Below are positions 5,093 through 38,265 of a DNA stretch of 38,265 nucleotides, one piece after another. The position numbers were made by a program, and so were the translations under genes. The notes beneath the pieces are model-generated. The model worked only from the letters and a program-made list of their open reading frames with translations. It made no database searches and was not told where the DNA came from. How positions within the stretch are numbered: the first letter of the stretch is position 1; each line of letters begins with the position of its first letter. Source of the stretch: a virus; IMG/VR virus record IMGVR_UViG_3300044729_001638, positions 1 to 38,265 of that record. One strand, given 5' to 3'.

Positions 5093-6507
5093 TGCCAAAG
5101 TTTGAAACCCCTCCTCCATTTCGGCCGTATCATCCTTCTAATGGGATGCCTGGCTTTTGGTATGGGAGTTTTTACCGTCAGCGTGTAGATGGCCTGAATG
5201 TTGACGCGAATGCTGTCAATATCATGGCTTCTTTGATTTCTGACAACACCAGACCCGGTGAAGGCGCTCCTTATGCGACGATGACGCCGTTTGGGCAGGA
5301 CAACTGGAACAACAGTTATGTTTCCGGTGCTGCTGCTGCCAGCTACTTTTCTGATGTTTGGCCTAATCCGGGTGCACTATCAGTCACTCAAACCAACTGG
5401 AACATTCTCAGATCTGACCGTTCGACGGCAAACCCCCATCCTTACTTCTCTGATTTGAGGCAGCAGGACGCCACTAGGGCCAACCCCCTTTTTGGTGGTG
5501 GCTATCTGGTTGGCATTTCTGGTGATCGACATGCAACCCTTTGGATTCCGTCAAAGCGGATGCTGGTTGAAGCGATCGGCTACAGCGGGCTTAACGCTTC
5601 TTGCGAAGCAATCGTCAAATACTCTTGGGGCGACGAAAATTCTGGGATCCCGAATTTCACTTTGCCGCTCGCTTCTACTGGCGGAGGGCCTGCAGGCGCA
5701 AACGCTGCGTCTATTCCTGTTGGGCCGCTTTTTTTCACCTACGACGATCTTCTTGAGTGCGGAGAAACTGGCGATCTCGGCCACATGGTTGGCATCTCGC
5801 TTCGCAACTATGGGCGCATTAGCGCAGGCCAGCCGACCGGCTGGTACAGGTGGCCTGCTCGCCGGTCTGATGGCACGATTGACGGCAGCGCCGTCAAGGC
5901 TGGTCAGGTGTTTCGCCTGAAGTCGACGTTCAACGAGGCGACAGCATTTCCGACGAATCAGCCGCTTCGTGCGCTTGCTCGTACTTTGAAGAAGTACGGC
6001 ATGATCGTGTATGACCGCAATTTCAACATCGCCAAGATCACGGTCCCCAACGACCCCAAGTGGCCGACTGGTTCACAAGATTTGGGGGTTGTGCTCGGCA
6101 ACAAGTTGCCGTTGTCGAATTTCGAGCCGGTTGACATGGATCCGATTGCCGGGCCGACCAACAGCATTCAGGTGCTTGCCCCGTTTCCGGAAGCCGATTC
6201 GTTCGGGGTTCTACAGTCGGTTATTGGCTTTACTCCCGCTTACGGCGGGGAGCAGATCACGTTGAACGGCGACAATTTGACGGGAACGACCAAGGTGGTA
6301 ATCACCGGGGCGCTTTCCGCCGTCAGCTTCACGGTTGTTAACGACAACACGCTGACGTTTGTGGCCCCGCCCGGACAGCCGGGTTTGTGCGATTTTTGGG
6401 TTGAAAACATTTACGGGTCCAGCAACTTTCTCGACTTTGAATACACGACAGTTATTCCTAGTCGGAATGTTCATTCCGCCTCATCTGGGCGGATGGGACT
6501 TGGATGA
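5092..6507 (+). CDS. Virion protein with C-terminal IPT/TIG domain, 471 aa
   Basis: ATG at 5092 overlaps the previous stop (TGATG). The N-terminal about 370 residues are Pro-, Gly- and Trp-rich and not recognised; short stretches such as FWYGSFYRQRVDG and DNTRPGEGAPYATMTP look like virion protein. Residues about 378-455 (VIGFTPAYGGEQITLNGDNLTG... TLTFVAPPGQPGLCDFWVEN) match the Ig-like IPT/TIG fold that phages often display on virion surfaces. Such domains are usually accessory carbohydrate- or surface-binding modules. The gene continues the overlapping appendage block. Assignment as a structural protein is firm; its place in the particle is not. Confidence 0.62.
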   Translation: MPKFETPPPFRPYHPSNGMPGFWYGSFYRQRVDGLNVDANAVNIMASLISDNTRPGEGAPYATMTPFGQDNWNNSYVSGAAAASYFSDVWPNPGALSVTQTNWNILRSDRSTANPHPYFSDLRQQDATRANPLFGGGYLVGISGDRHATLWIPSKRMLVEAIGYSGLNASCEAIVKYSWGDENSGIPNFTLPLASTGGGPAGANAASIPVGPLFFTYDDLLECGETGDLGHMVGISLRNYGRISAGQPTGWYRWPARRSDGTIDGSAVKAGQVFRLKSTFNEATAFPTNQPLRALARTLKKYGMIVYDRNFNIAKITVPNDPKWPTGSQDLGVVLGNKLPLSNFEPVDMDPIAGPTNSIQVLAPFPEADSFGVLQSVIGFTPAYGGEQITLNGDNLTGTTKVVITGALSAVSFTVVNDNTLTFVAPPGQPGLCDFWVENIYGSSNFLDFEYTTVIPSRNVHSASSGRMGLG

Positions 6508-6519: not shown

Positions 6520-6996
6520 ATGATGTCGTTCTCAAAGGCTCCAAGTAGGGCAATCCAGATTGTCACTTCTTCTACTTACACCGCCTCAACTGAGGATGTT
6601 CTCCTCATCGCCACATCTGGTGCGTGCACCGTTTCTCTTCCTCCTTGTTCCACTCGGTTCAATAAGAGTTTGAGATTCAGCGTTGTTTCTACTGGCGGCG
6701 CTGGAGCTTTGGTCACGATCAATGCTGCATCCAATGACGAAATTGGATTTCCGTTTGCTTCGATCACTTCTGTTCGGATTCCTCAGGGTGCAACATTTGA
6801 AATCACTCCAGTTGATTTCTCTACCCAGCTTCCACCAACACCCCCTGCTACAGGGCATTTTTGGACCCTTGAAGAGCTTGAAGGGAATCTCGGCTACATG
6901 CCGTTGTGGTGGGATCTTGCGGCAGGTACACCAACTCCGGCTACAGGACAGGTCATTGAATTCGACGGAACTGCCCCCGTTTGGGCTACTCCGTAA
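6520..6996 (+). CDS. Structural protein, fibre-like N-terminus, 158 aa
   Basis: Starts ATGATG at 6520/6523; there is no ribosome site upstream, and a candidate promoter places the transcription start at the ATG. Residues 10-110 (IQIVTSSTYTASTEDVLLIATSGACTVSLP ... VTINAASNDEIG) resemble the short beta modules of phage tail fibres that carry a TVTLP-like strand followed by IK/IN repeats. The C-terminus (TPATGQVIEFDGTAPVWATP) is the linker-like motif often found before fibre tips. It is the last gene of the appendage block. Confidence 0.55.
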   Translation: MMSFSKAPSRAIQIVTSSTYTASTEDVLLIATSGACTVSLPPCSTRFNKSLRFSVVSTGGAGALVTINAASNDEIGFPFASITSVRIPQGATFEITPVDFSTQLPPTPPATGHFWTLEELEGNLGYMPLWWDLAAGTPTPATGQVIEFDGTAPVWATP

Positions 6997-7011: not shown

Positions 7012-7209
7012 ATGGTTGATCCAATGCTCGCCAAGGCAAATTCGCGGGGACGTTCTGCAAAGATCATCACTCCGCAGCTTTCGCATATTTGCTGCACCGT
7101 TGGCGAAACGGGGATCAACTATGACACGACTGCCGAAATTTACGGGGGTGACCCTGTTGCAGGTGGTCGCAAGGAAGCAGTCAACCACGACTACAAGGAT
7201 GACGACTGA
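7012..7209 (+). CDS. Small hypothetical protein, 65 aa
   Basis: The ATG at 7012 is chosen over an in-frame GTG at 7003 because AGGG (7000-7003) sits 8 bases before it. The protein is soluble and mixed-charge, with an acidic, Asp-rich tail (NHDYKDDD). Two adjacent cysteines (SHICCTVGE) have no obvious partner motif. It is not recognised. Its stop overlaps the ATG of the next small gene (TGATG), which supports it being translated. Confidence 0.55.
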   Translation: MVDPMLAKANSRGRSAKIITPQLSHICCTVGETGINYDTTAEIYGGDPVAGGRKEAVNHDYKDDD

Positions 7210-7343
7210 TGGCTGAGTCTCAGGTGAAGAAGGCAAAGGGTGCGCCCATCGTGAAGCTGGGTCATACCGGCAACAAGCATCACGGTCGGGACGAGAAGGT
7301 GCAGGGTGTCATTCCCTCCGCCTACGATCAGTCTGCTGGCTGA
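7209..7343 (+). CDS. Very small basic protein, 44 aa
   Basis: The ATG overlaps the previous stop. The product reads MAESQVKKAKGAPIVKLG, then HTGNKHHGRDEKVQG and a short tail. It is Lys/His/Gly-rich and probably disordered. No family is recognised. Tight coupling on both sides and sense-like codons support a real gene; a role in head assembly is only suggested by position before scaffold and capsid. Confidence 0.5.
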   Translation: MAESQVKKAKGAPIVKLGHTGNKHHGRDEKVQGVIPSAYDQSAG

Positions 7344-7732: not shown

Positions 7733-8680
7733 ATGAGCGATTACGAAGATGACATCCTCGAAGGTTTTGAAGACCCGAATCGGGTTGCAAACATGGCCGA
7801 GGATCTCAATGAGATGCTCGAAGAATCTCGTCTTCTTGAAGAGTCAGAGCAGGATGACGACGACGACCTTCTTTACGAGGATGAGGTCGGCGAGTACGAG
7901 GATTCCGAAATTGAGGAGCCGCCTTCGTACTACAAGCTTGGCGACTATGAGATTCCTGCAAGTCAGGTAGATGATGTTGTCAATCTTGTCCAATGGGCTT
8001 CTTCGCTTTCTCCCGAGCAGGCAGACCAAATTAACCGTGCTTTGGCCGGAGAGGTGGCCGCTGCATCGCAGGTTGCTGATGTCGAGCCAGCTTCTAGTCA
8101 GCCCTCGATTCCTTCGTACATCGAAGAGCTTGAGTCTTCTGATCCCACAATGGCTCGGTACATGCGGGAGATGTACGAGGAGCGAATCCAGCGAGAGCAG
8201 GAACTTGAAACTCGTTTGAACGAGGTGATGGGTGAACTGACCGCCCTTGAAGGCATTACGGGTGAACGCATTTATGCTGAAACCCGGCAGGAAGTTGCTC
8301 AGGTCGAGGAGAACGTTCGCGACAATTTCCTCGCAGAGTACGGCCTTGACGACGAGGACTACGACCTTCTTGTTGCTACTGCCGGAGAGCTGAACATCAC
8401 AAATTCGATGGTTCAGGCTTACGGCATGGAAGAGGGTTTCCGGAAGACTCTCGAGACTGCACTTTACGCAAATGAGGATCTTCGGAATCGTTCCGTTTCC
8501 AACGAAGTTGAGTCTCGACTTGTTGCAGAGCAGACATCTTCTCGAAAGGAAGCTGCAGCCGGTCTTGCCCCTCAGGGCGGAACAAATCTTCCCACTTCCA
8601 CACCTGCTGGTTTGCCCCAGTCTGAGCGTCGTTCAGCGATGGTTCGTGACATTGAAGCTCTTCTCGGAATGCAGCCTTAA
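7733..8680 (+). CDS. Scaffolding protein, 315 aa
   Basis: The second ATG of ATGATG (7733) is chosen because the AGGAGGAAT-N-ATG layout matches the copy before the 10347 gene. The N-terminal 70 residues are extremely acidic (EEDDDDDLLYEDEVGEYED-like). The middle is helical and coiled-coil-like, including a long helix (ARYMREMYEERIQREQEL). A short basic end (SERRSAMVRDIEALLGMQ) fits the capsid-binding tail of scaffold proteins. Size, charge and position immediately before the major capsid gene support the call. Such proteins guide procapsid assembly and then leave or are degraded. Confidence 0.78.
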   Translation: MSDYEDDILEGFEDPNRVANMAEDLNEMLEESRLLEESEQDDDDDLLYEDEVGEYEDSEIEEPPSYYKLGDYEIPASQVDDVVNLVQWASSLSPEQADQINRALAGEVAAASQVADVEPASSQPSIPSYIEELESSDPTMARYMREMYEERIQREQELETRLNEVMGELTALEGITGERIYAETRQEVAQVEENVRDNFLAEYGLDDEDYDLLVATAGELNITNSMVQAYGMEEGFRKTLETALYANEDLRNRSVSNEVESRLVAEQTSSRKEAAAGLAPQGGTNLPTSTPAGLPQSERRSAMVRDIEALLGMQP

Positions 8681-10346: not shown

Positions 10347-10883
10347 ATGGAGCCAGAAGAGCCGGTGTGTCTGATCTCTGAGGACACGCGAGATCAGCAA
10401 ACAGAGTTTGATGGGGCAGTCTGGAAGATTGCCGCTGGGGCGACGGTTTATTGGCCGTGGAAGATTGCCTGCCACCTGCTTGGAGATCCCGGTCTTCGTA
10501 ACACCGAGGCCTTTGACCACCGTCGATATGACCGTCATCGTGTCATGCAGGCTTCTGGTGTGATCCTTCCTCAGTCTGTGACCGAGGAAGAGTGGCAGGA
10601 GATGCGCCCCAAGATTCTTGTCCAGACGATGGGTGGTGAGAAGATCACCATGCTTTCCGAAATGCCGATCGACTCTCCTGTTGACTTCCAAACTGGTTTC
10701 TCTAATTCGGATTTGAAGGTCCGAATCTCTGAGCTTGAGCGGACCATCAGTCAGCTCACGGCGAACATCGAGGAAAACACCCCGTTTGTTGTTACTGAGA
10801 CTTCGCCCAACGAGAAGTCTGTTACGAGTATCGACGAGATCCCAGAGGACACGGGTGGACCGCGCAAGTCAACTCGTCGATGA
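10347..10883 (+). CDS. Hypothetical head/tail-region protein, 178 aa
   Basis: ATG at 10347 follows AGGAGGAATC. Residues 1-60 are rich in Trp, Glu and Ile (TEFDGAVWKIAAGATVYWPWKIACHLLGDPGL), and residues 60-85 hold basic HRRYDRHRVMQASGVILP. The C-terminal third is a helix (LKVRISELERTISQLTANIEEN) followed by a charged tail. It is not recognised. Its place after the capsid terminator resembles small proteins found between head and tail genes. It overlaps the next gene by 29 bases. Confidence 0.55.
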   Translation: MEPEEPVCLISEDTRDQQTEFDGAVWKIAAGATVYWPWKIACHLLGDPGLRNTEAFDHRRYDRHRVMQASGVILPQSVTEEEWQEMRPKILVQTMGGEKITMLSEMPIDSPVDFQTGFSNSDLKVRISELERTISQLTANIEENTPFVVTETSPNEKSVTSIDEIPEDTGGPRKSTRR

Positions 10884-28128: not shown

Positions 28129-29622
28129 CTAGTGGAAACGAATCGCTTCTCTCCACCATGCAGGGAAGAGCTTGCGGTTCTGCCCGTAGATGCGTTTGAA
28201 CTGGCTGTCGAGGATGTAGGTGGTTGCCCAGTCCTCTGCGGAGCGAACTCCGCGACCAGTCATCTGCACAAGGGTTCTTGTTGTCTGCACGTTGTACCAT
28301 TCCTGACCGCCCGGTGCATGAAGTCTTGTAGAAATCTGCCTGTCCGAGAGGTTCGGGAATGGCACTTTGGGTACGATCACGACTCGTGCATCGTCGTGAG
28401 CGAAGTCGACTCCACGATCCATCGACGGGGCCAACAGCACGCCACCCTCGGACCTGAACGAGGTGAGGGCTTGCTCCCTTGTGGAGGCATCCAAGTAGTG
28501 GTGAACGCTCCGACCAATGGTGCCGAGGTGGTTCACAAGAAACCTCGTCAGCTCATAGCTGACCGTGTGTACGAGGATGCGCTCGTCTGGGTGTCTACGA
28601 ATGATGTCTGCAATCTCGTTGGCAACCTTTGGCCATGATTCCTCCTTCATCTTGTGGCTCATGTCGATGCCCTTGCGCTTTGCGTGGATGAGCCGGTTCT
28701 CGACCGGGAATGTCATGGGCACGTTGACATACGAGTAGCTGCCCGACCATCCGAGATCCGAGACAAGCATCTCTGGCGAGATGACTGTTGCGCTCATGAG
28801 GAGAAACTTTTCTCCTTTGTTCCAGATCACATGCTGACCGTAGCTGGCGACTGAGACAGGCTTGAGGACGAGTGCGTTGTTATGAGGTTGGCGCACCCAA
28901 TTCTCAGGGTTCCAATGCTTGAGCAGATACGAAACTGTTTTGCATCGACCTTCCCATGTGCGTCGTTCTCTGCCTTCGTCGAGTGTCCTTGCATGTGCTT
29001 GTGCTGCGTTAAGCCAGTCGATCAACCAAGTTTTGATTGTTTTCAGGTGTGTGCCCGGCTTGGGGATCTTCTTGCCAAGAAAGTTGGCAGCTTTTGCTGG
29101 CAGGTACACTTCAACGAATCCCATGAGCTGCGACTCAAGTGTGTCTGCTTCGTCGAAGATGATGAGATCCCGGTTTTTGAATCCGCTGCCGTAGTTGCTT
29201 TGGTAGAGCTGAAAGCTTGAGTTGACGCAGGCCAGTCGAGCTGCCTCGGCCATGACTTTCGCTCGTTGGTATGGACATGCAGCTTTTGAGGGGCAGAACG
29301 AGCAGCTATCGCCTTGACAGTCGTTAGTCGTCTTGTCTTTGTAGACAGTCTTGTAGTTCTCTCTGCCTTTGACGACGTTTGCGTTTGGAAAGTCTGCTGC
29401 GAACTGATCTTGCAGGGTTTTCGATGAGCAGACGTAGCTTGTCTTTTCTGAGCGGAGGCTTTGCCTCACGATCTCGGCGATGAGCGTCTTTCCGCTTCCT
29501 GTTGGGGCGTCAAGGATGACGAGGTCGTTGCTGCGGAAGCCTTCGATGATCGCATCTGCAGCATGTTGCTGGTGTGGTCTGACGCTGGTGACCCATTCGG
29601 GTAGGTCGATTCTTGGCTTCAT
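28129..29622 (-). CDS. DinG/XPD-type superfamily 2 helicase with Fe-S cluster, 497 aa
   Basis: ATG at 29622 overlaps the previous stop (ATGA). Motifs: R-HQ--A (15-22), Walker A DAPTGSGKT (38-46), VCSSKTLQDQF (motif Ia), four cysteines C102, C107, C110, C116 placed like the Fe-S cluster of XPD/DinG, DEAD (157-160), LLMSATVI (motif III), and MTGRGVRS near the C-terminus (motif VI). The family unwinds DNA 5' to 3'. It probably serves phage replication, recombination or D-loop/R-loop removal. It is the only helicase recognised in the window. Confidence 0.85.
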   Translation of the reverse strand: MKPRIDLPEWVTSVRPHQQHAADAIIEGFRSNDLVILDAPTGSGKTLIAEIVRQSLRSEKTSYVCSSKTLQDQFAADFPNANVVKGRENYKTVYKDKTTNDCQGDSCSFCPSKAACPYQRAKVMAEAARLACVNSSFQLYQSNYGSGFKNRDLIIFDEADTLESQLMGFVEVYLPAKAANFLGKKIPKPGTHLKTIKTWLIDWLNAAQAHARTLDEGRERRTWEGRCKTVSYLLKHWNPENWVRQPHNNALVLKPVSVASYGQHVIWNKGEKFLLMSATVISPEMLVSDLGWSGSYSYVNVPMTFPVENRLIHAKRKGIDMSHKMKEESWPKVANEIADIIRRHPDERILVHTVSYELTRFLVNHLGTIGRSVHHYLDASTREQALTSFRSEGGVLLAPSMDRGVDFAHDDARVVIVPKVPFPNLSDRQISTRLHAPGGQEWYNVQTTRTLVQMTGRGVRSAEDWATTYILDSQFKRIYGQNRKLFPAWWREAIRFH

Positions 29623-32562: not shown

Positions 32563-33188
32563 CACTCCTCCTCTTCAAGTTCGCACAGATCGTGAAGCTC
32601 ATCTGCCGTCAAGTAACCGAGCATGATGCACATGACAGCAGCGAACTTGTAGCACATGGAAGGATGCTGCCAACGTCCCAGCTCCCTTGTCGAAAGCTTC
32701 GGGATGATCGTCGGGAGCAGATCCTCCGGGATCCTTGCGAGCAAAGTCTGAGCCAGCCCCTCGTCGTCAAGGCCAATCTCAACATCCATGCCAACACCTT
32801 CAAGTGTTGAAGCAACAAGCCGAATGTTCTCGTCCTGCTTTCGCAGGTTCTCAAGAAGCCTTGACTTGTCCTCCTCAACCCTCTTGCGGTAAGAGTCCAC
32901 CGCACTCATTACATCGGTGTAGCGGATGCCTCTCGACACCAGAACATCATCAAAGTTCATGATGTTCTTCGCCATCTCGGTTCGCTCAGATCCGGTGATG
33001 GTCGAACGAAGGACGACGTAGTGGCCGTACTTCTTCTCATGGCCCGCCCAATCACACGGGTTTGCGTTGACCACCATGAAAGGGGTCGGATACATCGGAC
33101 AATCTTCCCGTCCGCTGGGAAAGTTCGTGTAGCTTACAGCTACAAACTTCAATGACTTGCTTGCCTCTTGTGCAATCTTTCTACTCAT
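32562..33188 (-). CDS. Hypothetical protein, 208 aa
   Basis: ATG at 33188 with GAAAGG upstream; this 19-base start region is identical to that of the gene starting at 33888. The N-terminal third looks like a small beta domain (LKFVAVSYTNFPSGREDCPMYPTPFMVVNANPCDWAGHEKKYGHYVVLRSTI). A coiled coil follows (AVDSYRKRVEEDKSRLLENLRKQDENIRLVASTLEG). The C-terminus has MGF/MLGYL-like helices and ends in poly-Glu. No family recognised. It overlaps the glycosylase start (TGATG). Confidence 0.55.
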   Translation of the reverse strand: MSRKIAQEASKSLKFVAVSYTNFPSGREDCPMYPTPFMVVNANPCDWAGHEKKYGHYVVLRSTITGSERTEMAKNIMNFDDVLVSRGIRYTDVMSAVDSYRKRVEEDKSRLLENLRKQDENIRLVASTLEGVGMDVEIGLDDEGLAQTLLARIPEDLLPTIIPKLSTRELGRWQHPSMCYKFAAVMCIMLGYLTADELHDLCELEEEE

Positions 33189-33199
33189 GTCGGAACCTT

Positions 33200-33265
33200 T
33201 CAGTCTTTGAGGAACGGATAGATGATGAGGGTTGCAAACAATGCAACCCAATAGATGGGCGGCAT
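33200..33265 (-). CDS. Micro-membrane protein, 21 aa
   Basis: The ATG uses the last base of the preceding stop (TGATG at 33263-33267). The product begins MPPIYWVALFATLII and ends with a YPFLKD tail: one complete membrane helix. Its stop lies just before the GAAAGG ribosome site of the next gene. Two perfect hairpins, GGGTTGC/GCAACCC and GATGGGCGG/CCGCCCATC, fall in this gene and its start. It is short, so it needs proof, but the coupling and hydrophobicity are convincing for a real peptide. Confidence 0.45.
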   Translation of the reverse strand: MPPIYWVALFATLIIYPFLKD

Positions 33266-33888
33266 CACTCATCACCGCCCATCATGTTGCGAAGATCGTT
33301 CAACTGCTCAGGTGTCATCAGCTCAGGGTGCTGCTCCACGATCTCGACGATCTCCTCCAGAAGTTCTTCTGCGGTCAGACCCTCTGACTTCTTGCTTTCA
33401 GCAAAGCCTTCGCTTGACTGAAGCAGGTCGGCCATGAAGTTCAGGTTGTGGTTCACAACCTCCTGAAGTTCTTCAAGTGCCAACACTCCAGTCTCCACAA
33501 GGAAGAACGAGAGCAGGATGTTGAACGAAGCGGTTGACGCCTTCATCCCCTGCCAGAACTCCGAGTTCTCACACACGTTGGCGAGTGCCTTCTGGATGCC
33601 TTCCGGCATCTCCCTCTTCATGACATGCTCGAAGATCTCCACAAGCTCTGCTTGTGAACAGATCCAAGTGTGCCAGTTGAACTCGTGCGTTGCCAACGCT
33701 GCCAGCTCGTAGAGCTGGCTCTCGCTGAGGGACACGATGGTCCCGTCCGTCAGCTCAAAGCTGACGGGTGTCGTGCCGAGATCCTCAAGGATCTCTTGTG
33801 CCGTGTGCCTGTAGACGGAACGAAGGAACTGGTCCTCGCTCCCGAACTCCTGCTCGAAGATCTCGTCGAACTGCGGGTTGTCACTCAT
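33265..33888 (-). CDS. Acidic hypothetical protein, 207 aa
   Basis: ATG at 33888 with GAAAGG 7-8 bases upstream. The protein is acidic and helical, with a beta part around residues 40-60 (TTPVSFELTDGTIVSLSES) and a hydrophobic helix (STASFNILLSFFLVETGVLALEELQEVV). The C-terminal helices are Glu-rich (AEELLEEIVEIVEQHPELMTPEQLNDL). The last gene of the operon (37867-38196) has a similar acidic layout with VIVLSMFFVS in the same place, so the two may be distantly related. Function unknown. Confidence 0.55.
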   Translation of the reverse strand: MSDNPQFDEIFEQEFGSEDQFLRSVYRHTAQEILEDLGTTPVSFELTDGTIVSLSESQLYELAALATHEFNWHTWICSQAELVEIFEHVMKREMPEGIQKALANVCENSEFWQGMKASTASFNILLSFFLVETGVLALEELQEVVNHNLNFMADLLQSSEGFAESKKSEGLTAEELLEEIVEIVEQHPELMTPEQLNDLRNMMGGDE

Positions 33889-33935
33889 GTCGGAACCTTT
33901 CGATTGTTGTCGTACAACTTGTGGACTGTTTGTGG

Positions 33936-33976
33936 TTCACAACTAATCCGATACAAGGGATCGGATTAGTTGTGAA
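33936..33976 (-). terminator. 17-bp hairpin terminator overlapping a stop codon
   Basis: TTCACAACTAATCCGAT (33936-33952) pairs perfectly with ATCGGATTAGTTGTGAA (33960-33976), with loop ACAAGGG. The TAA stop of the upstream gene (33966-33968) is inside the arm. No T-run follows. It shares the GGTTCACAA edge with the palindrome at 36595. Confidence 0.75.
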
Positions 33977-34280
33977 GGTTGAGCTTCTGGCGGATTCTTT
34001 CGGCGACGGAACCAATGTCGGGGTCGTCGACTGGCAACAGCACCGGGATTGCGTGTCGCCTAACAGACAGATGCTGCCACTCCGAGTACGGCACAGTTGA
34101 AACTGTGCGGCCTGCTCGGAACACGACGCAACCACGTTGGGTCAAGCTGTCGAACTTGTTGCCCACAACCTCGACCTCGTTACCTTGAAAGGTAACGAGG
34201 TCGCCGGGCCGGAGATCCCGGTACTCTACGTTCTCCGGCACCAACTCAAGTTGGTGCAAGTAGCGGACACCTTCACTCAT
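33966..34280 (-). CDS. Small beta-rich hypothetical protein, 104 aa
   Basis: ATG at 34280 overlaps the previous stop by 8 bases. Residues 18-55 (ENVEYRDLRPGDLVTFQGNEVEVVGNKFDSLTQRGCVVF) look like an SH3- or KOW-like barrel with an LRPGDLV turn. A C-terminal helix follows (DPDIGSVAERIRQKLNLHN). Not recognised. A perfect 15-bp hairpin (34172-34203) encodes much of the barrel's core. The gene ends in a terminator hairpin. Confidence 0.55.
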   Translation of the reverse strand: MSEGVRYLHQLELVPENVEYRDLRPGDLVTFQGNEVEVVGNKFDSLTQRGCVVFRAGRTVSTVPYSEWQHLSVRRHAIPVLLPVDDPDIGSVAERIRQKLNLHN

Positions 34281-35148
34281 ACTCGCTCACCCTCTCCGAC
34301 TCGTCGGTGACGATGATGGAAGAGAGCAGCTCCGCTGCACCCTTCTCCTGTCCGTGCTCGTATCGTTCGATCACAAGATCGAACGATTCGGTGATTGAAG
34401 TCGGCAGGTTGCTCGGCTTGCCGTACCCGCCGCTCGGCTTGAAGCCGAAGTGATCCCGGTGATCGTCGTCGTGTTCTTCGTTCAACACGAAGAACACCCG
34501 TCGCAACATCGCAGGGTGAGCAATGCAGAACATTGCTACGTCCATGTCGATCGGATCACGGTAGTCCTTGATCTTCACCATCTCGACGTTCGTCGAGTTG
34601 GAGGACCTGCCGTAACCCGAAGGGTTGACAGCTTCGGCAACCCAAAGCTCCGCATTGAAACCCATCGCTTGTGCTGCTGTAACAGCAGCAACAACCGAAG
34701 CTCCACGCTGAACTAGCGCAGCATCGGAAACGAAAGCCGATGCCGCACAGTTCATGACGATGCGAAGCACCCGACCGTTGACGTTGTCATCTTGCATGTG
34801 CTGTTCCCACATGCACTCCGGTTCACCGGAGATGAACCTGTCGACGTCGACCCATGAGCCGGACACGTCGAGCAGACTTTCAGTCTGCTCAAAGTTGAAC
34901 TTGTTGATCCTGTCTTGCAGTTTGTCCAACTCACGTTGGACAGTCTCGTCGACATCATCGGTGTGCTGATTCCAGCCATGCACGAGCATCCGTGCTGCGC
35001 CTTCAAGTCCGGCACCGAGATCCCAGCCGTCCGCTGGAGGCTTCGCTGAAGCGAAGTTCGCAGCTCGACGCTGGTCAGCAACATTGCTGACCAGCTCCCA
35101 CACTTCACCGACACTCTCGTAGAGAGTTTCCCTGTCATGCTTTGCCAT
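34273..35148 (-). CDS. Probable partner of the MoxR-like ATPase (possibly DUF7192-like), 291 aa
   Basis: ATG at 35148 follows AAGGGG and lies 2 bases after the ATPase stop. Landmarks are SGSWVDVDRFISGEPECMWEQ (about residues 96-116), RVLRIVMNCAASAFVSDAALVQRGASVVAAVTAAQAMGFNAELWVAEAV, and KIKDYRDPIDMDVAMFCIAHPAMLRRVFF. The -DVDRF-GEPECM and RGA-V-A---A---G---ELW patterns recall a phage/archaeal unknown family found near AAA+ genes (I think DUF7192; not checked). The central beta-alpha-beta order could be a VWA- or Rossmann-like fold. As CobS/MoxR ATPases work with a VWA partner, this is a plausible partner, but no MIDAS motif is seen. Confidence 0.55.
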   Translation of the reverse strand: MAKHDRETLYESVGEVWELVSNVADQRRAANFASAKPPADGWDLGAGLEGAARMLVHGWNQHTDDVDETVQRELDKLQDRINKFNFEQTESLLDVSGSWVDVDRFISGEPECMWEQHMQDDNVNGRVLRIVMNCAASAFVSDAALVQRGASVVAAVTAAQAMGFNAELWVAEAVNPSGYGRSSNSTNVEMVKIKDYRDPIDMDVAMFCIAHPAMLRRVFFVLNEEHDDDHRDHFGFKPSGGYGKPSNLPTSITESFDLVIERYEHGQEKGAAELLSSIIVTDESERVSEYE

Positions 35149-35150
35149 GT

Positions 35151-36512
35151 TCAGACCCCTTCCATGAGTCGAGCGACCTTGTCGCTGGTCAGGCCCTTGA
35201 ACACTCGGGCCTTGAGCACCTTGTCCAGATCCCATCCCTTCAGGATGAGCTGGGCACCGGCCTTGCTTGCTCGTGGTGAAACCACGATGTTGAGCTTCGC
35301 AGCCTCGGCGTTCTTGCGGATCTTCCGCACCACCTTGAGCCACTCCGTGGCCTCCTTGCCCTTGAGTCCGGTGGACTCAACCATCGAGCGTTCGACCTTG
35401 TGGTCGATATCCACCTCGATGAAGGTGAAGCGGTCAAGGAATGCCATGTCCTGCGGGGCACGGCCCATGAACTGGGCCGTCGCACCGGAACCCCAGGTGT
35501 TGGCCGTGGCGCAGATCAGGGACTGATCGTGCATGTCGACCCACCGATCCGGGAAGTTCGCTCCGTCCCCGGCCAGAGCCTGATTGAGGCTCGTGATGAT
35601 TCCGCTGTTGCCGTTGTCGACTTCGTCGAGGGTGAACACACCACCGTCACCCTCGGCGTCGTACCGACGCCGGAACTCGGTGTCAACGTAGTTGCCGTTG
35701 GCGTCGTTGTATCCCCAGAGTCGGGACTCTGGAGTCTGCGGGCCGCAGCTCATCGCCCCGTAGGGGAGGCCGAGGATCTCGGCAGCCTGCCGAGTCATGT
35801 ACGACTTCCCCGTTCCGGGGGGACCGACGAGGTAGACATGCTGTCCTGCCGAAAGGCAGGCCAGCAGGTCGGCGAGGGCAGGGTGGCTGTCCTTCGGGGT
35901 GTCCGGCGAAGCCTCGGCTTCGGCCTTGGCCTTGGCCTTGGCCTCCTCGTCAGCCTTGCGGGCAGCTTCTGCTGCCTCCTGCTTGACCATGATCTCGATC
36001 CGCTCCTGAATCGGGGTGGACGGGTCGAGCAGCTTGCCTTTCTCCTCGTCGGTCAGCCCCCCTTCAGGGGGCTGGGCCTCACCGTCACCGGCTTCGCCGG
36101 GCTCATCTTCGGTCGGCTCTCCGTCGCCGCCCTCTGCACCCTCGGCACCTTCGGTGCCACCGTCACCGGCTTCGCCGGGCTGAGGCTGAGCCTCACCCTC
36201 ACCGGCTTCGCCGGGCTGGGGGTCACCGTCACCGTTGCCGGTGGCGTCTCCGCCGTGGTTCTCACCACGGGGCGTGTGCTCCCTGCCACCCTCGACTGCG
36301 GAGGTGATGGCGTCGATCAGGTTCGCCTCGTTCCACGAGGACCACCCGCCGTTGGACTTGATCGACAGCAAAGCTGCCGCTCGGATCAGCTCGGCACGGG
36401 TCAGATCGGCCAGATCGGTATCCCGAAGGGATCCGTCGTGGTCCTTGACTTGTGCGACCACCACCCCGTAGGGGTTGTGGATCCGCCGAATGAATCGGGG
36501 CTTGTCGTTCAT
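35151..36512 (-). CDS. MoxR/CobS-like AAA+ ATPase with low-complexity N-terminus, 453 aa
   Basis: ATG at 36512; AAAGG lies upstream and the start codon falls in a hairpin. Residues 1-75 form a small helical domain. Residues 80-200 are low-complexity: acidic Gly/Glu/Pro repeats (GEAGDGEAQP), then an Ala/Lys helix. The AAA+ core starts at about 210: Walker A GPPGTGKS (230-237), Walker B FTLDEVD (293-299), sensor-like ICATANTWGSG, and a FLDRF Arg-finger region, as in MoxR/CobS. These ATPases remodel partner proteins or insert metal. The C-terminus is a helical lid. Three 18-bp repeats encode the QPGEAGE units. Confidence 0.8.
   Translation of the reverse strand: MNDKPRFIRRIHNPYGVVVAQVKDHDGSLRDTDLADLTRAELIRAAALLSIKSNGGWSSWNEANLIDAITSAVEGGREHTPRGENHGGDATGNGDGDPQPGEAGEGEAQPQPGEAGDGGTEGAEGAEGGDGEPTEDEPGEAGDGEAQPPEGGLTDEEKGKLLDPSTPIQERIEIMVKQEAAEAARKADEEAKAKAKAEAEASPDTPKDSHPALADLLACLSAGQHVYLVGPPGTGKSYMTRQAAEILGLPYGAMSCGPQTPESRLWGYNDANGNYVDTEFRRRYDAEGDGGVFTLDEVDNGNSGIITSLNQALAGDGANFPDRWVDMHDQSLICATANTWGSGATAQFMGRAPQDMAFLDRFTFIEVDIDHKVERSMVESTGLKGKEATEWLKVVRKIRKNAEAAKLNIVVSPRASKAGAQLILKGWDLDKVLKARVFKGLTSDKVARLMEGV
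36086..36217 (-). repeat. Three copies of an 18-bp coding repeat in the ATPase linker
   Basis: CACCGGCTTCGCCGGGCT occurs at 36086-36103, 36164-36181 and 36200-36217. On the - strand each encodes QPGEAGE-like residues, and each contains the hairpin CCGGC-TTC-GCCGG. Other nearby codons form further hairpins (GGCACC/GGTGCC; CAGCCCCC/GGGGGCTG). Confidence 0.75.
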
Positions 36513-36521
36513 GTGATGAAC
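36507..36521 (-). promoter_or_regulatory. Start-codon hairpin of the ATPase gene
   Basis: GTTCAT (36507-36512) pairs with ATGAAC (36516-36521), loop of three. On the mRNA the initiating AUG is in the 3' arm, next to an AAAGG ribosome site. Folding would hide the start codon. Confidence 0.5.
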
Positions 36522-36594
36522 CTTTCAGGTCGTGTGCTTGATGGATGGTTGACTGGTGGCGATGGTCGCCGTTTCTGTATCCAGCCTTGGTGGT

Positions 36595-36622
36595 TCACAA
36601 TAAGTTTGCAAACTTATTGTGA
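36595..36622 (-). terminator. 28-bp perfect palindrome after the 36614 gene
   Basis: The palindrome arm is TCACAATAAGTTTG, followed by its exact complement. The TAA stop of the upstream gene (36614-36616) is in the arm. It separates that gene from the ATPase gene and is flanked by GGTTCACAA, like the 33936 terminator. It may be a terminator, RNase site or protein-binding site. Confidence 0.72.
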
Positions 36623-37585
36623 GGAAGTGGGGAGCAGCTCGGCCACCTCGCTTGCCCGCTCCGTGAGGGCGTCAAGGATGGCATCGGTCGGCTCGTACCT
36701 GCCGATCCATGATCGGCAAGCCGGGACGTTGAGAGCACCAAGGGTGCTGAACACGACCCACACAAGCCGTGGCCTGCCACGGCCACCGAGAAACTCTGGC
36801 ACCTCATCCTTCAAGATGAGGTCGATCGCCTCGGAAACCGCAGCTCGTGCCCGGTCGGCAGCCTGCACCTCACCCTTCGTCTTGCGGGTGATCCGAGGAT
36901 CCTTCACATGGTCAAGGGTGAAACCCTTGTGCCTTGACCATCGGCCGTACTTCTCGGCGCCACCTTTCAAGGTGCCGCTGAGAATCTTGCCGTTCTTGTA
37001 CCTGACTTCGACGATGGGTTGACCATCGTCGTCGGTGCCTGTCCTCACCACGTTGACGCTGCCCCAGGGCAGCGTCTCGCCCCAGAGGTCACCGATCGGA
37101 GCGGCAGAACACGTGTGTTCTTCGACGAGTTCAACCGACATGAGATCTACGATCTCGCCGAGAGCCATCATCTCCGGGTCAACCTCCACATTGTGGAGGT
37201 CAGCCTCTTCGACAGCGAGGAAGTCAAAGACTTCCTCTTCTCCGGTGCCGAAAGCCCGCATCAGTCCTGCAAACTGCAGGACCGTATCGACTTTCTCGTG
37301 ACGGGCATCACGAAGCAGAGCCTTCGCTCCGAGCATACGCTCGGCTCGGTTCCTTGCACCCTGATCGGCGCCACCCGACCCATCCTTGATGGGTCGGCGG
37401 TCGAGAACACAGTTCTCGTAGTCGAGAGGAATGTCCAACTCCCACTTGAAGAGTGGGAGTCCGAAGAACATGGTGCTCAACATGTTGAGCACCCTGAGAC
37501 GGAAAGCGTATTGACGACGGAACCGTCGCCAATCCGCTGCGTACAGCCCGGCCATCGTCGGGATAACGCTGGGTTCAGTTGCCAT
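36614..37585 (-). CDS. Hypothetical protein, 323 aa
   Basis: The ATG at 37585 is preferred to a TTG two codons earlier: GGGAG lies 6 bases before it. The N-terminal 90 residues are helical and basic (LYAADWRRFRRQYAFRLRVLNMLSTMFFGL), then a helical middle (GARNRAERMLGAKALLRDARHEKVDTVLQFAGLMRAFG), an acidic part, a beta part (IVEVRYKNGKILSGTLKGG), and a basic C-terminal third (KDPRITRKTKGEVQAADRARAAVSEAIDLI). No family is recognised. At least 12 perfect inverted repeats with arms of 7 bp or more and loops of up to 6 lie in its 972 bases by hand count. It could be a third component with the AAA+ ATPase. Confidence 0.6.
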   Translation of the reverse strand: MATEPSVIPTMAGLYAADWRRFRRQYAFRLRVLNMLSTMFFGLPLFKWELDIPLDYENCVLDRRPIKDGSGGADQGARNRAERMLGAKALLRDARHEKVDTVLQFAGLMRAFGTGEEEVFDFLAVEEADLHNVEVDPEMMALGEIVDLMSVELVEEHTCSAAPIGDLWGETLPWGSVNVVRTGTDDDGQPIVEVRYKNGKILSGTLKGGAEKYGRWSRHKGFTLDHVKDPRITRKTKGEVQAADRARAAVSEAIDLILKDEVPEFLGGRGRPRLVWVVFSTLGALNVPACRSWIGRYEPTDAILDALTERASEVAELLPTSSQ

Positions 37586-37593
37586 AGGCAACT
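37577..37593 (-). promoter_or_regulatory. Start-codon hairpin of the 36614 gene
   Basis: AGTTGCC (37577-37583) pairs with GGCAACT (37587-37593), loop ATA. On the mRNA, the A and U of the start codon lie in the loop, and part of the GGGAG ribosome site is in the stem. Confidence 0.52.
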
Positions 37594-37620
37594 CCCTTCT
37601 GTTGGTTGACTGGGTTACTC

Positions 37621-37652
37621 ACCACAGGGTGGAGCTAACTCCACCCTGTGGT
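37621..37652 (-). terminator. 14-bp hairpin terminator
   Basis: ACCACAGGGTGGAG (37621-37634) pairs perfectly with CTCCACCCTGTGGT (37639-37652), loop CTAA. It lies between two genes, without a T-run, 12 bases from a second strong hairpin. Confidence 0.72.
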
Positions 37653-37663
37653 CTGGCCTGCTG

Positions 37664-37690
37664 GTCACCCCCCTTTCAAAGGGGGGTGAC
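37664..37690 (-). terminator. 13-bp hairpin with the stop codon at its loop
   Basis: GTCACCCCCCTTT (37664-37676) and AAAGGGGGGTGAC (37678-37690) are perfect complements around one base. The stop codon of the 37676-37864 gene sits at the tip. In practice the A/T pairs next to the tip would form the loop. Together with 37621-37652 it makes a tandem terminator. Confidence 0.7.
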
Positions 37691-37864
37691 GTTGACAACT
37701 TCGATGCTGCTGGCCGTAGGCCAGATCTTCTGTAGCTCGGCAAGCCGAGCTGTTCCTGCGTCGAGGCAGCTAGCTGCCTCGTTGAAGCTGGCCTCAAGGG
37801 CCAGCCTTCCGTACCGGGTGGAACTTTCCAGTTCCACCCGGTACTCCACCAGAAGGACTGACAT
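37676..37864 (-). CDS. Small hypothetical protein, 62 aa
   Basis: ATG at 37864 lies 2 bases after the previous stop. The product starts MSVLLVEYRVELESSTRY and continues as an Ala/Leu/Glu helix (LALEASFNEAASCLDAGTARLAELQKI) with a beta end. Unknown function; soluble. Nearly every stretch of its 189 bases is part of a perfect inverted repeat, the longest having 15-bp arms (37811-37844), others at 37734-37751 and about 37763-37782. Its start and stop are also inside hairpins. Confidence 0.58.
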   Translation of the reverse strand: MSVLLVEYRVELESSTRYGRLALEASFNEAASCLDAGTARLAELQKIWPTASSIEVVNVTPL

Positions 37865-37874
37865 GGTCAGTCCT
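37854..37874 (-). promoter_or_regulatory. Hairpin joining stop, ribosome site and start codon
   Basis: AGGACTGAC (37854-37862) pairs with GTCAGTCCT (37866-37874), loop ATG. On the mRNA the AGGA ribosome site and the upstream UGA stop are in the 5' arm, the A and U of the next AUG are in the loop, and UCCU in the 3' arm pairs with the ribosome site. A ribosome finishing the upstream gene would open it: a likely translational coupling switch. Confidence 0.58.
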
Positions 37875-38196
37875 CGCTCCAGTTGAAGGGGCCTCCCCTG
37901 AAGTCCTGCTCGAAGGCCCTCTTGATCAGGGCCTCGGTGAACTGTCCCTCCGGCTCGTTGTCCGAGACGAAGAACATCGACAGGACGATCACGACTTCCA
38001 GTCGTTGGGACTCCTCGTCGCCCTGTCCCATCGACAGGGCGACGTTGACGAGGCTCATCTCGGAGAGGCCCTCCGGGTCGAGGAGTTCGCTGAACTCCTC
38101 GGCGTCGCTGTTGTTCCAGTAGGACTGGAACAAGTTGAAGACGAAGTCTTCGGTGATCTCCTCGTCCTCGAGGAGAGTCTTGATGATGTTCGACAT
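37867..38196 (-). CDS. Acidic hypothetical protein, 109 aa
   Basis: ATG at 38196 is chosen; AAAGGA lies 13 bases upstream, with a hairpin between. The protein is very acidic and helical (TLLEDEEITEDFVFNLFQSYWNNSDAEEFSELL), with a hydrophobic stretch (RLEVVIVLSMFFVS) and a C-terminal FTEALIKRAFEQDFRGGPFNW. It shares its layout with the 33265-33888 protein. First gene of the rightmost operon and dense in inverted repeats (for example 38016-38044, 12-bp arms). Function unknown; acidic early phage proteins often inhibit host factors, but that is only a guess. Confidence 0.58.
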   Translation of the reverse strand: MSNIIKTLLEDEEITEDFVFNLFQSYWNNSDAEEFSELLDPEGLSEMSLVNVALSMGQGDEESQRLEVVIVLSMFFVSDNEPEGQFTEALIKRAFEQDFRGGPFNWSED

Positions 38197-38209
38197 GGGC
38201 TTCGCCCAT
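38195..38209 (-). promoter_or_regulatory. Hairpin between ribosome site and start codon
   Basis: ATGGGC (38195-38200) pairs with GCCCAT (38204-38209), loop TTC. On the mRNA it lies between AAAGGA and the AUG; the AU of the start codon is in the 3' arm. The 13-base gap to the ribosome site is longer than usual unless the hairpin forms. Confidence 0.48.
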
Positions 38210-38239
38210 CCTTTCTGTTGGTTGATGTTGGCGTGGGCT

Positions 38240-38245
38240 ATCATA
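38240..38245 (-). promoter_or_regulatory. Candidate -10 box of the rightmost operon
   Basis: TATGAT on the - strand, close to the TATAAT consensus, lies about 44 bases before the ATG at 38196. A -35 box would fall at or beyond the window edge. It would drive the leftward early operon. Confidence 0.45.
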
Positions 38246-38265
38246 AGTTTATGTGGTTCCAATCA

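Follow-up and report, generated by a model that had tools for sequence, protein, structure and literature searches.

The window analysed here is the whole 38,265-nucleotide viral contig IMGVR_UViG_3300044729_001638 from IMG/VR. It encodes a podovirus-type portal, a major head protein and a Rad3-like helicase, and at its right end it carries an early-type operon on the − strand. The genes of this operon, and likewise the gaps between them (e.g. 37,621–37,652, 36,595–36,622 and 33,936–33,976), are densely strung with short perfect hairpins. The block and the genes it covers are as follows, with the number of hairpins in each gene set against the number in shuffled sequences:

33,000–38,210, − strand: block of dense hairpins in the promoter-proximal part of the leftward early operon, from direct counts and shuffles, tapering toward ~32,000
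37,867–38,196, − strand: gene 1, 109 amino acids (aa), no family; 5 hairpins against 3.0 in the stricter shuffles
37,676–37,864, − strand: gene 2, 62 aa, no family; 4 against 0.6 in the stricter shuffles
36,614–37,591, − strand: gene 3, 325 aa, no family, with a distant homologue (26% identity) in the relative G002; 13 against 3.25
35,151–36,512, − strand: gene 4, CobS/MoxR-like AAA ATPase (phrog_249, 1.8e-46); 8 against 0.66
34,273–35,148, − strand: gene 5, DUF7192 / phrog_1909; 9 against 3.1
33,966–34,280, − strand: gene 6, 104 aa; 3 against 1.5
33,265–33,888, − strand: gene 7, 207 aa; 5 against 1.0

Counted mechanically, inverted repeats with perfect arms of at least 7 bases and loops of 3–8 number 100 across the window, 55 of which fall in the last 5.27 kb (33,001–38,265; 10.5/kb), compared with a mean of ~1.4/kb in the remaining 33 kb and ~1.2/kb in the first 31 kb. 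Gene 3 holds 13–14 hairpins. In 36,614–37,585, where the initial annotation had counted at least 12 by hand, we count 14, and the capsid gene, in which it had seen none by eye, has 0. Shuffles that keep the protein and its codon use give 1.4 ± 1.2 for gene 3 (13 observed), and stricter shuffles that also keep dinucleotides give 3.25 ± 1.47; the earlier estimate of well under one was therefore too low, a fair expectation being ~1.4–3.3. Under the stricter shuffle the seven genes together (33,265–38,196) contain 47 hairpins against 13.1 ± 2.65, with a maximum of 20 in 500 shuffles, while the structural and replication genes contain 15 against 7.2 ± 2.4 (maximum 16). The observed count thus lies far above that of the shuffled sequences, and the drop in count on synonymous shuffling bears out the proposal that third positions have been shaped so that the arms match. 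The excess tapers off toward ~32 kb, so the block reaches slightly further left than the limit of 33,740 first assigned to it; its placement in the right-hand operon stands. The block is confirmed as real, and is bigger than the initial annotation had claimed. The individual hairpins (perfect inverted repeats by direct count, no strand assigned) are:

33,443–33,461: arm 8, loop 3
33,640–33,656: arm 7, loop 3
33,701–33,719: arm 8, loop 3
33,747–33,767: arm 9, loop 3
33,778–33,795: arm 7, loop 4
33,936–33,976: arm 17, loop 7, intergenic
34,091–34,108: arm 7, loop 4
34,172–34,203: arm 14, loop 4
34,238–34,257: arm 8, loop 4
34,362–34,387: arm 11, loop 4
34,471–34,497: arm 11, loop 5
34,519–34,537: arm 7, loop 5
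34,672–34,690: arm 8, loop 3
34,793–34,815: arm 8, loop 7
34,870–34,890: arm 9, loop 3
34,923–34,942: arm 8, loop 4
35,070–35,095: arm 11, loop 4
35,271–35,287: arm 7, loop 3
35,362–35,380: arm 8, loop 3
35,460–35,480: arm 8, loop 5
35,654–35,672: arm 8, loop 3
35,715–35,732: arm 7, loop 4
35,778–35,794: arm 7, loop 3
36,054–36,074: arm 8, loop 5
36,253–36,270: arm 7, loop 4
36,595–36,622: arm 12, loop 4, spans the gene 3 stop and the intergenic gap
36,700–36,718: arm 8, loop 3
36,766–36,783: arm 7, loop 4
36,801–36,822: arm 8, loop 6
36,913–36,929: arm 7, loop 3
37,009–37,031: arm 9, loop 5
37,055–37,076: arm 9, loop 4
37,182–37,200: arm 8, loop 3
37,217–37,237: arm 9, loop 3
37,264–37,282: arm 8, loop 3
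37,375–37,397: arm 10, loop 3
37,402–37,418: arm 7, loop 3
37,438–37,460: arm 9, loop 5
37,472–37,493: arm 9, loop 4
37,577–37,593: arm 7, loop 3, gene 3 start
37,621–37,652: arm 14, loop 4, intergenic
37,664–37,690: arm 12, loop 3
37,734–37,751: arm 7, loop 4
37,762–37,781: arm 8, loop 4
37,787–37,805: arm 7, loop 5
37,811–37,844: arm 15, loop 4
37,854–37,874: arm 9, loop 3, spans the gene 1 stop and the gene 2 start
37,914–37,934: arm 7, loop 7
38,016–38,044: arm 12, loop 5
38,079–38,101: arm 10, loop 3
38,111–38,133: arm 10, loop 3
38,157–38,176: arm 8, loop 4

It is exceedingly improbable that the block reflects ordinary sequence statistics, terminators, mobile repeats or an assembly artefact. 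Local GC is high at 35–37 kb, and a few of the longer intergenic hairpins could be terminators; however, the shuffles refute this explanation, as do independent hairpin-rich contigs with GC contents of 42–60% that show the same block. Intrinsic terminators have a stem of 6–9 bp, a loop of 3–5 bases and few wobble pairs. The phage hairpins differ from them in lying inside genes, in not being GC-rich and in lacking U-run enrichment: 18 of 639 are followed by at least 5 T in 8 bases, against 15.7 expected, so that U-runs are neither enriched nor avoided. REP, attC and mobile repeats were rejected because the copies in the window share no sequence, direct repeats being only short or weak. An Rfam scan returned nothing above the gathering threshold in the window and only two tRNAs in six relatives.

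Recurrence among relatives and position in the operon

DNA similarity, single-protein scans of viral contigs, and tblastn with gene 3 among named phages revealed no close relative of the operon, and the single-protein scans with the window ATPase reached only distant homologues (<60% identity). One of the relatives, G002, has a capsid protein 75% identical to that of the window and carries the same operon, with an ATPase of 41% identity, yet no hairpin block in it. Searching with an alignment of these two ATPases retrieved 46 contigs, with ~16 loci showing the same block in the same operon. A larger scan of uncultured phage contigs with hairpin-rich ATPases gave 36 loci with at least 3 hairpins/kb, within a continuous range of 0–12/kb; other relatives bear the same ATPase gene without the block. 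Gordonia phage Octobien14; ct52p938, MW202803; and a Streptomyces prophage with the ATPase show no hairpin enrichment. Beyond what the initial annotation could know, then, the trait recurs in dozens of relatives, sets in at the early promoter region and thins out with distance down the operon.

On the ATPase tree the trait switches state at least four times. Specifically, the nearest relative of the window lacks it, and a hairpin-poor pair (L044 and L045) is nested inside hairpin-rich phages. Such switching between related phages suggests that the pressure depends on the host. In a first sample, a first early gene of ~105 aa with the motif SxGxGSxSDQxxMN (alignment A6) was present in 7 hairpin-poor members and in 0 of 12 hairpin-rich ones. 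Mutual exclusion was rejected after the larger scan, in which many contigs have both the hairpins and this gene (L125, L170, L150, L140, L137, L143 and L121). The gene family has no PHROG, phage or PDB match, the last searched by predicted fold. It is frequent in hairpin-poor phages without being exclusive to them, and examples lie at 7,056–7,370 of L030, 6,432–6,764 of L044 and 7,088–7,387 of L022.

Whole contigs are organised as two divergent transcription blocks. The dense zone opens where the rightward early operon starts and then decays, whereas the divergent late operon, which leaves from the same intergenic region, stays at background hairpin density. Onset is sharp, ~1–1.5 kb upstream of the ATPase core: in the rich contigs the mean density is 0.8–1.5/kb upstream, 10.2/kb just before the core and 6.3 at the core, and then 4.4/kb at +1 kb, 3.0 at +2.5 kb and ~1.2 at +5 kb.

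In several relatives a sigma70-like promoter (TTGACA-N17/18-TATNNT), followed by a leader with CGGGATG motifs, precedes the first hairpins. The motifs occur singly or in pairs. Promoter region and leader together lie at 29,110–29,300 of G013 (10,110–10,300 of L078), 6,612–6,790 of L043 and 5,900–6,110 of L079, and the leader, which has no match in Rfam, is a candidate for a structured RNA. The leader was rejected as the cause of the hairpins because hairpin-poor relatives share it. A further conserved hairpin, GACGGY-NNN-RCCGTC with loops gaa, gta and ttc across phages, lies ~100 bases upstream of the early promoter (G007 5,748–5,762; G005 7,277–7,291; G013 29,002–29,016; L043 6,505–6,519). 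Relatives also have hairpins at gene starts with the Shine-Dalgarno GGAG in the loop. In L024 the 5-base loop TGGAG is constant and the stems vary, as in TAATTTAC tggag GTAAATTATG; the sites are 6,380–6,402, 6,704–6,724, 8,523–8,543 and 10,564–10,584.

Loop grammar and conservation

Pooled over the hairpin-rich zones, the excess is limited to loops of 2–5 bases (loop 3, 142 observed and 2.3 expected; loop 4, 130 and 2.4; loop 5, 45 and 1.4), and loops of at least 6 are nearly at background. Perfect stems are mostly 6–8 bp, and the median gap between successive hairpins (arm at least 5) is 27 bases. Among triloops, GNA is enriched 3.6–4.2-fold, TNC 3.0–3.2-fold and TNT 1.8–2.1-fold, with C-G or T-A as the closing pair; the favoured tetraloops are TNNA and CNNG. 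These preferences are absent from hairpin-poor and other control sequences.

Exactly one in-frame codon forms the loop in 126 of 230 triloops. When amino acid and codon use are held constant, GGA makes up 13 of 13 glycine loops (2.4 expected), GTA 13 of 17 valine loops (2.0 expected) and GAA 17 of 18 glutamate loops (10.9 expected). Overall, in-frame GNA loops number 44 against 15.8 expected from codon use, while TNC, at 17 against 17.6, shows no synonymous preference.

Consistent with constraint on these positions, fourfold-degenerate sites in close relatives differ at 9.6% in stems (93/970) and 7.6% in loops (13/171), compared with 20.4% outside (1703/8334). In L023 and L024, which are 95% identical, most hairpins are unchanged and there are cleanly compensated pairs (e.g. 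TTGCTGT/ACAGCAA in one, TTTCTGT/ACAGAAA in the other); in a five-phage clade about a dozen hairpins are retained in 5 of 5 members, some through compensation. The comparison of relatives proposed in the initial annotation therefore does reveal compensatory arm changes. At twelve recurrent sites in 27 ATPase cores, both partners have changed in 140 cells, where shuffles give 80.5 ± 7.7 and sliding the partners by 1–3 columns gives 44–86. These double changes are better evidence of covariation than the percentage paired, which is biased upward because the sites were chosen from the same sequences, although related rows soften them. One such site reads CAAGAAC..GTTCTTG, CAAGGAC..GTCCTTG, TAAGAAC..GTTCTTA and CGACAAT..ATTGTCG in different phages. 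Selection, acting on synonymous sites and on the codons in the loops, maintains the hairpins.

A mutational origin is very unlikely; in this reading imperfect palindromes in a region exposed as single strands would be made perfect by template switching, and the hairpins would have no function. In its favour, stems are perfect regardless of GC, compensatory pairs would arise, and sites are often all-or-none across distant phages. However, fourfold sites change less within stems and loops than outside them, close relatives differ mainly by single uncompensated changes (e.g. alignment column 893), template switching does not explain the synonymous choice of loop codons, and the trait is confined to one operon. 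Template switching alone, as offered in the initial annotation, does not account for these observations.

Readings of the hairpin array

The strand evidence comes from mismatches, folding energies and loop codons. Stems of 9 bp with one inner mismatch have G.U 36 times and A.C 11 times, with G.G and T.T above C.C and A.A. With codon use controlled, inner G.U pairs occur at 0.14 of expectation and A.C pairs at 0.09 (odds ratio 1.9, p = 0.006), so that both are strongly avoided; in a first comparison of close relatives the two had appeared equal, before the larger set of 9-bp stems put G.U above A.C. Folding z-scores of the mRNA strand (−3.08, −2.21 and −2.29) indicate more stable folding than those of the complement (−2.41, −2.09 and −2.03). 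The coding-strand signals, namely the GNA loops and the excess of G.U over A.C, favour a folded early mRNA. We conclude that selection acts on the hairpins in their coding-strand sense, and the simplest form of this is an mRNA that must fold quickly into small perfect stems.

The reading we favour, with roughly even confidence, is that the promoter-proximal early operon is an array of short discrete hairpins that most likely act in the early mRNA; we infer both that RNA is the molecule that folds and what the folding does. The hairpins would close quickly as the transcript emerges from the polymerase, so that the RNA is not left open. The benefit would be highest near the promoter because loss of the transcript there costs every downstream gene. 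The threat might be premature Rho-type termination, polymerase backtracking and RNA-DNA hybrids, or single-strand-specific host RNases or defence. A gradient with promoter distance is expected of anything that truncates or stalls the transcript and thus favours anti-termination or help with elongation, but it would also fit a shield that guards the RNA against host RNases or RNA-directed defence during the first minutes, and we give the two groups about equal weight. Among the explanations listed in the initial annotation, selection on a folded early transcript fits best.

A related and unlikely version is a ratchet, in which coding-strand hairpins, in nascent RNA or displaced DNA, would keep host RNA polymerase from sliding backwards or ending transcription on the DNA that is used first. 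Early transcription would then carry on through the operon by means of a physical device, rather than regulatory sites, that phage lineages would repeatedly gain and lose.

Several observations weigh against a folded transcript. Wobble is hardly tolerated, unlike in most RNA helices, and stems are not GC-enriched, matching their surroundings. RNA-type tetraloops are at expectation (GNRA, 15 against 14.8; UNCG, 7 against 6.0), while GNA triloops, of the DNA-stable type, are enriched; d(GNA) with C-G closing is a well-known stable DNA loop (PMC5815330). Avoidance of U-runs, considered as a sign of transcribed hairpins, was rejected, and statistical significance is softer than it appears because several of the counted sequences are related phages. 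Given the G.U avoidance, the GNA loops and the absence of GNRA/UNCG enrichment, hairpins in coding-strand DNA stay a serious alternative.

Coding-strand DNA is the main rival, possible though doubtful. The coding strand would form mini-hairpins when transiently single-stranded, through displaced-strand replication or R-loops from the early promoter, or through N4-like extrusion under negative supercoiling, and these would serve as priming, protein or supercoil-buffering sites. Besides the loop types (GNA with C-G closing; TNNA and CNNG tetraloops), the near-exclusive Watson-Crick pairing, the GC-neutral stems and the lack of excess in loops above 5 bases agree with this rival, and a density that falls away from a single point would suit an origin. 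Overall, GNA loops and the complementary TNC loops show ~3-fold enrichment each, but this strand-symmetric DNA signal weakened once codon use was controlled: codon-controlled loop choice and mismatch types favour the coding strand, a bias that duplex extrusion does not predict. Furthermore, hairpins are missing from the neighbouring late operon, their spacing of a few tens of bases in the block makes them far more numerous than priming or promoters would need, and hairpins of relatives display the Shine-Dalgarno.

The N4 virion RNA polymerase promoters, raised in the initial annotation, likewise belong to the early region of a podovirus-type phage and have a short stem of 5–7 bp, with a 3-base loop containing a sheared G:A pair and closed by C-G (PMC4496689). 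The likeness of the loop holds, here as a statistical preference only. Identity with such promoters was rejected: N4 has three promoters with conserved bases, whereas the block consists of dozens of stems per operon, inside genes and with no common sequence, and in relatives an ordinary sigma70-like promoter precedes the hairpins. The two longest virion genes have no family match, in the absence of any search aimed at a virion RNA polymerase gene.

Quite unlikely is an array of binding sites, in which a phage or host protein would coat the early mRNA by recognising the shape of short hairpins. Sharp preferences in stem length, loop size, closing pair and loop identity, together with conserved synonymous sites in loops, speak for it; against it, stem sequences are free, no candidate protein co-occurs with the trait, and the sole gene that had seemed to alternate with it failed to do so in the larger sample.

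Among known systems, the block somewhat resembles the genome-scale ordered RNA structure of RNA viruses (PMC3695492), in which pervasive structure is laid over coding sequence through synonymous choice, occurs in some genera but not in their close relatives, and has a debated function, possibly shielding. An excess over sequence-matched shuffles across coding sequence is found here as well. The phage block differs in lying in one operon of a DNA phage rather than throughout the genome of a positive-strand RNA virus, in decaying from the promoter, and in its discrete perfect hairpins of 6–8 bp with a loop grammar and avoided wobble. HK022 put RNA, which suppresses pausing and termination in cis, also places leader-proximal structures in an early phage transcript (PMC9378689). 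However, put is a defined leader element, whereas the block is an array across several kb of genes, and the conserved CGGGATG leader of the relatives occurs in hairpin-rich and hairpin-poor phages alike. Searches of open-access papers found nothing comparable among phage coding sequences, in agreement with the earlier remark that no such gene block had been described.

A double-stranded DNA phage can thus overlay several kb of early genes with a second, structural code whose own rules govern stem length, loop size and loop codons. Because the code is turned on and off among close relatives, it offers a natural comparative system for asking what the early transcript of a phage, or the template of that transcript, must be protected from within minutes of the start of infection. 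It is also a warning that phage synonymous sites can be strongly constrained, which matters for codon-based analyses and for annotation.

Other features of the operon

The hairpin at 37,854–37,874 is a single perfect hairpin that holds the gene 1 stop and the gene 2 start, with a Shine-Dalgarno in its stem, and it looks like a translational-coupling device. The AAA ATPase (35,151–36,512) adjoins the DUF7192 protein (34,273–35,148), an unexplained gene pair. The phrog_249 ATPase is common to Mycobacterium and Gordonia phages and is frequently labelled as porphyrin biosynthesis in phage records. Within the ATPase gene, repeated CACCGGCTTCGCCGGGCT units at 36,080–36,240 encode a Gly/Glu-rich linker, each unit containing a short GC-rich inverted repeat. 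A 540-aa open frame runs antisense to the operon (35,400–37,022, + strand) and is probably a by-product of GC-rich coding on the opposite strand.

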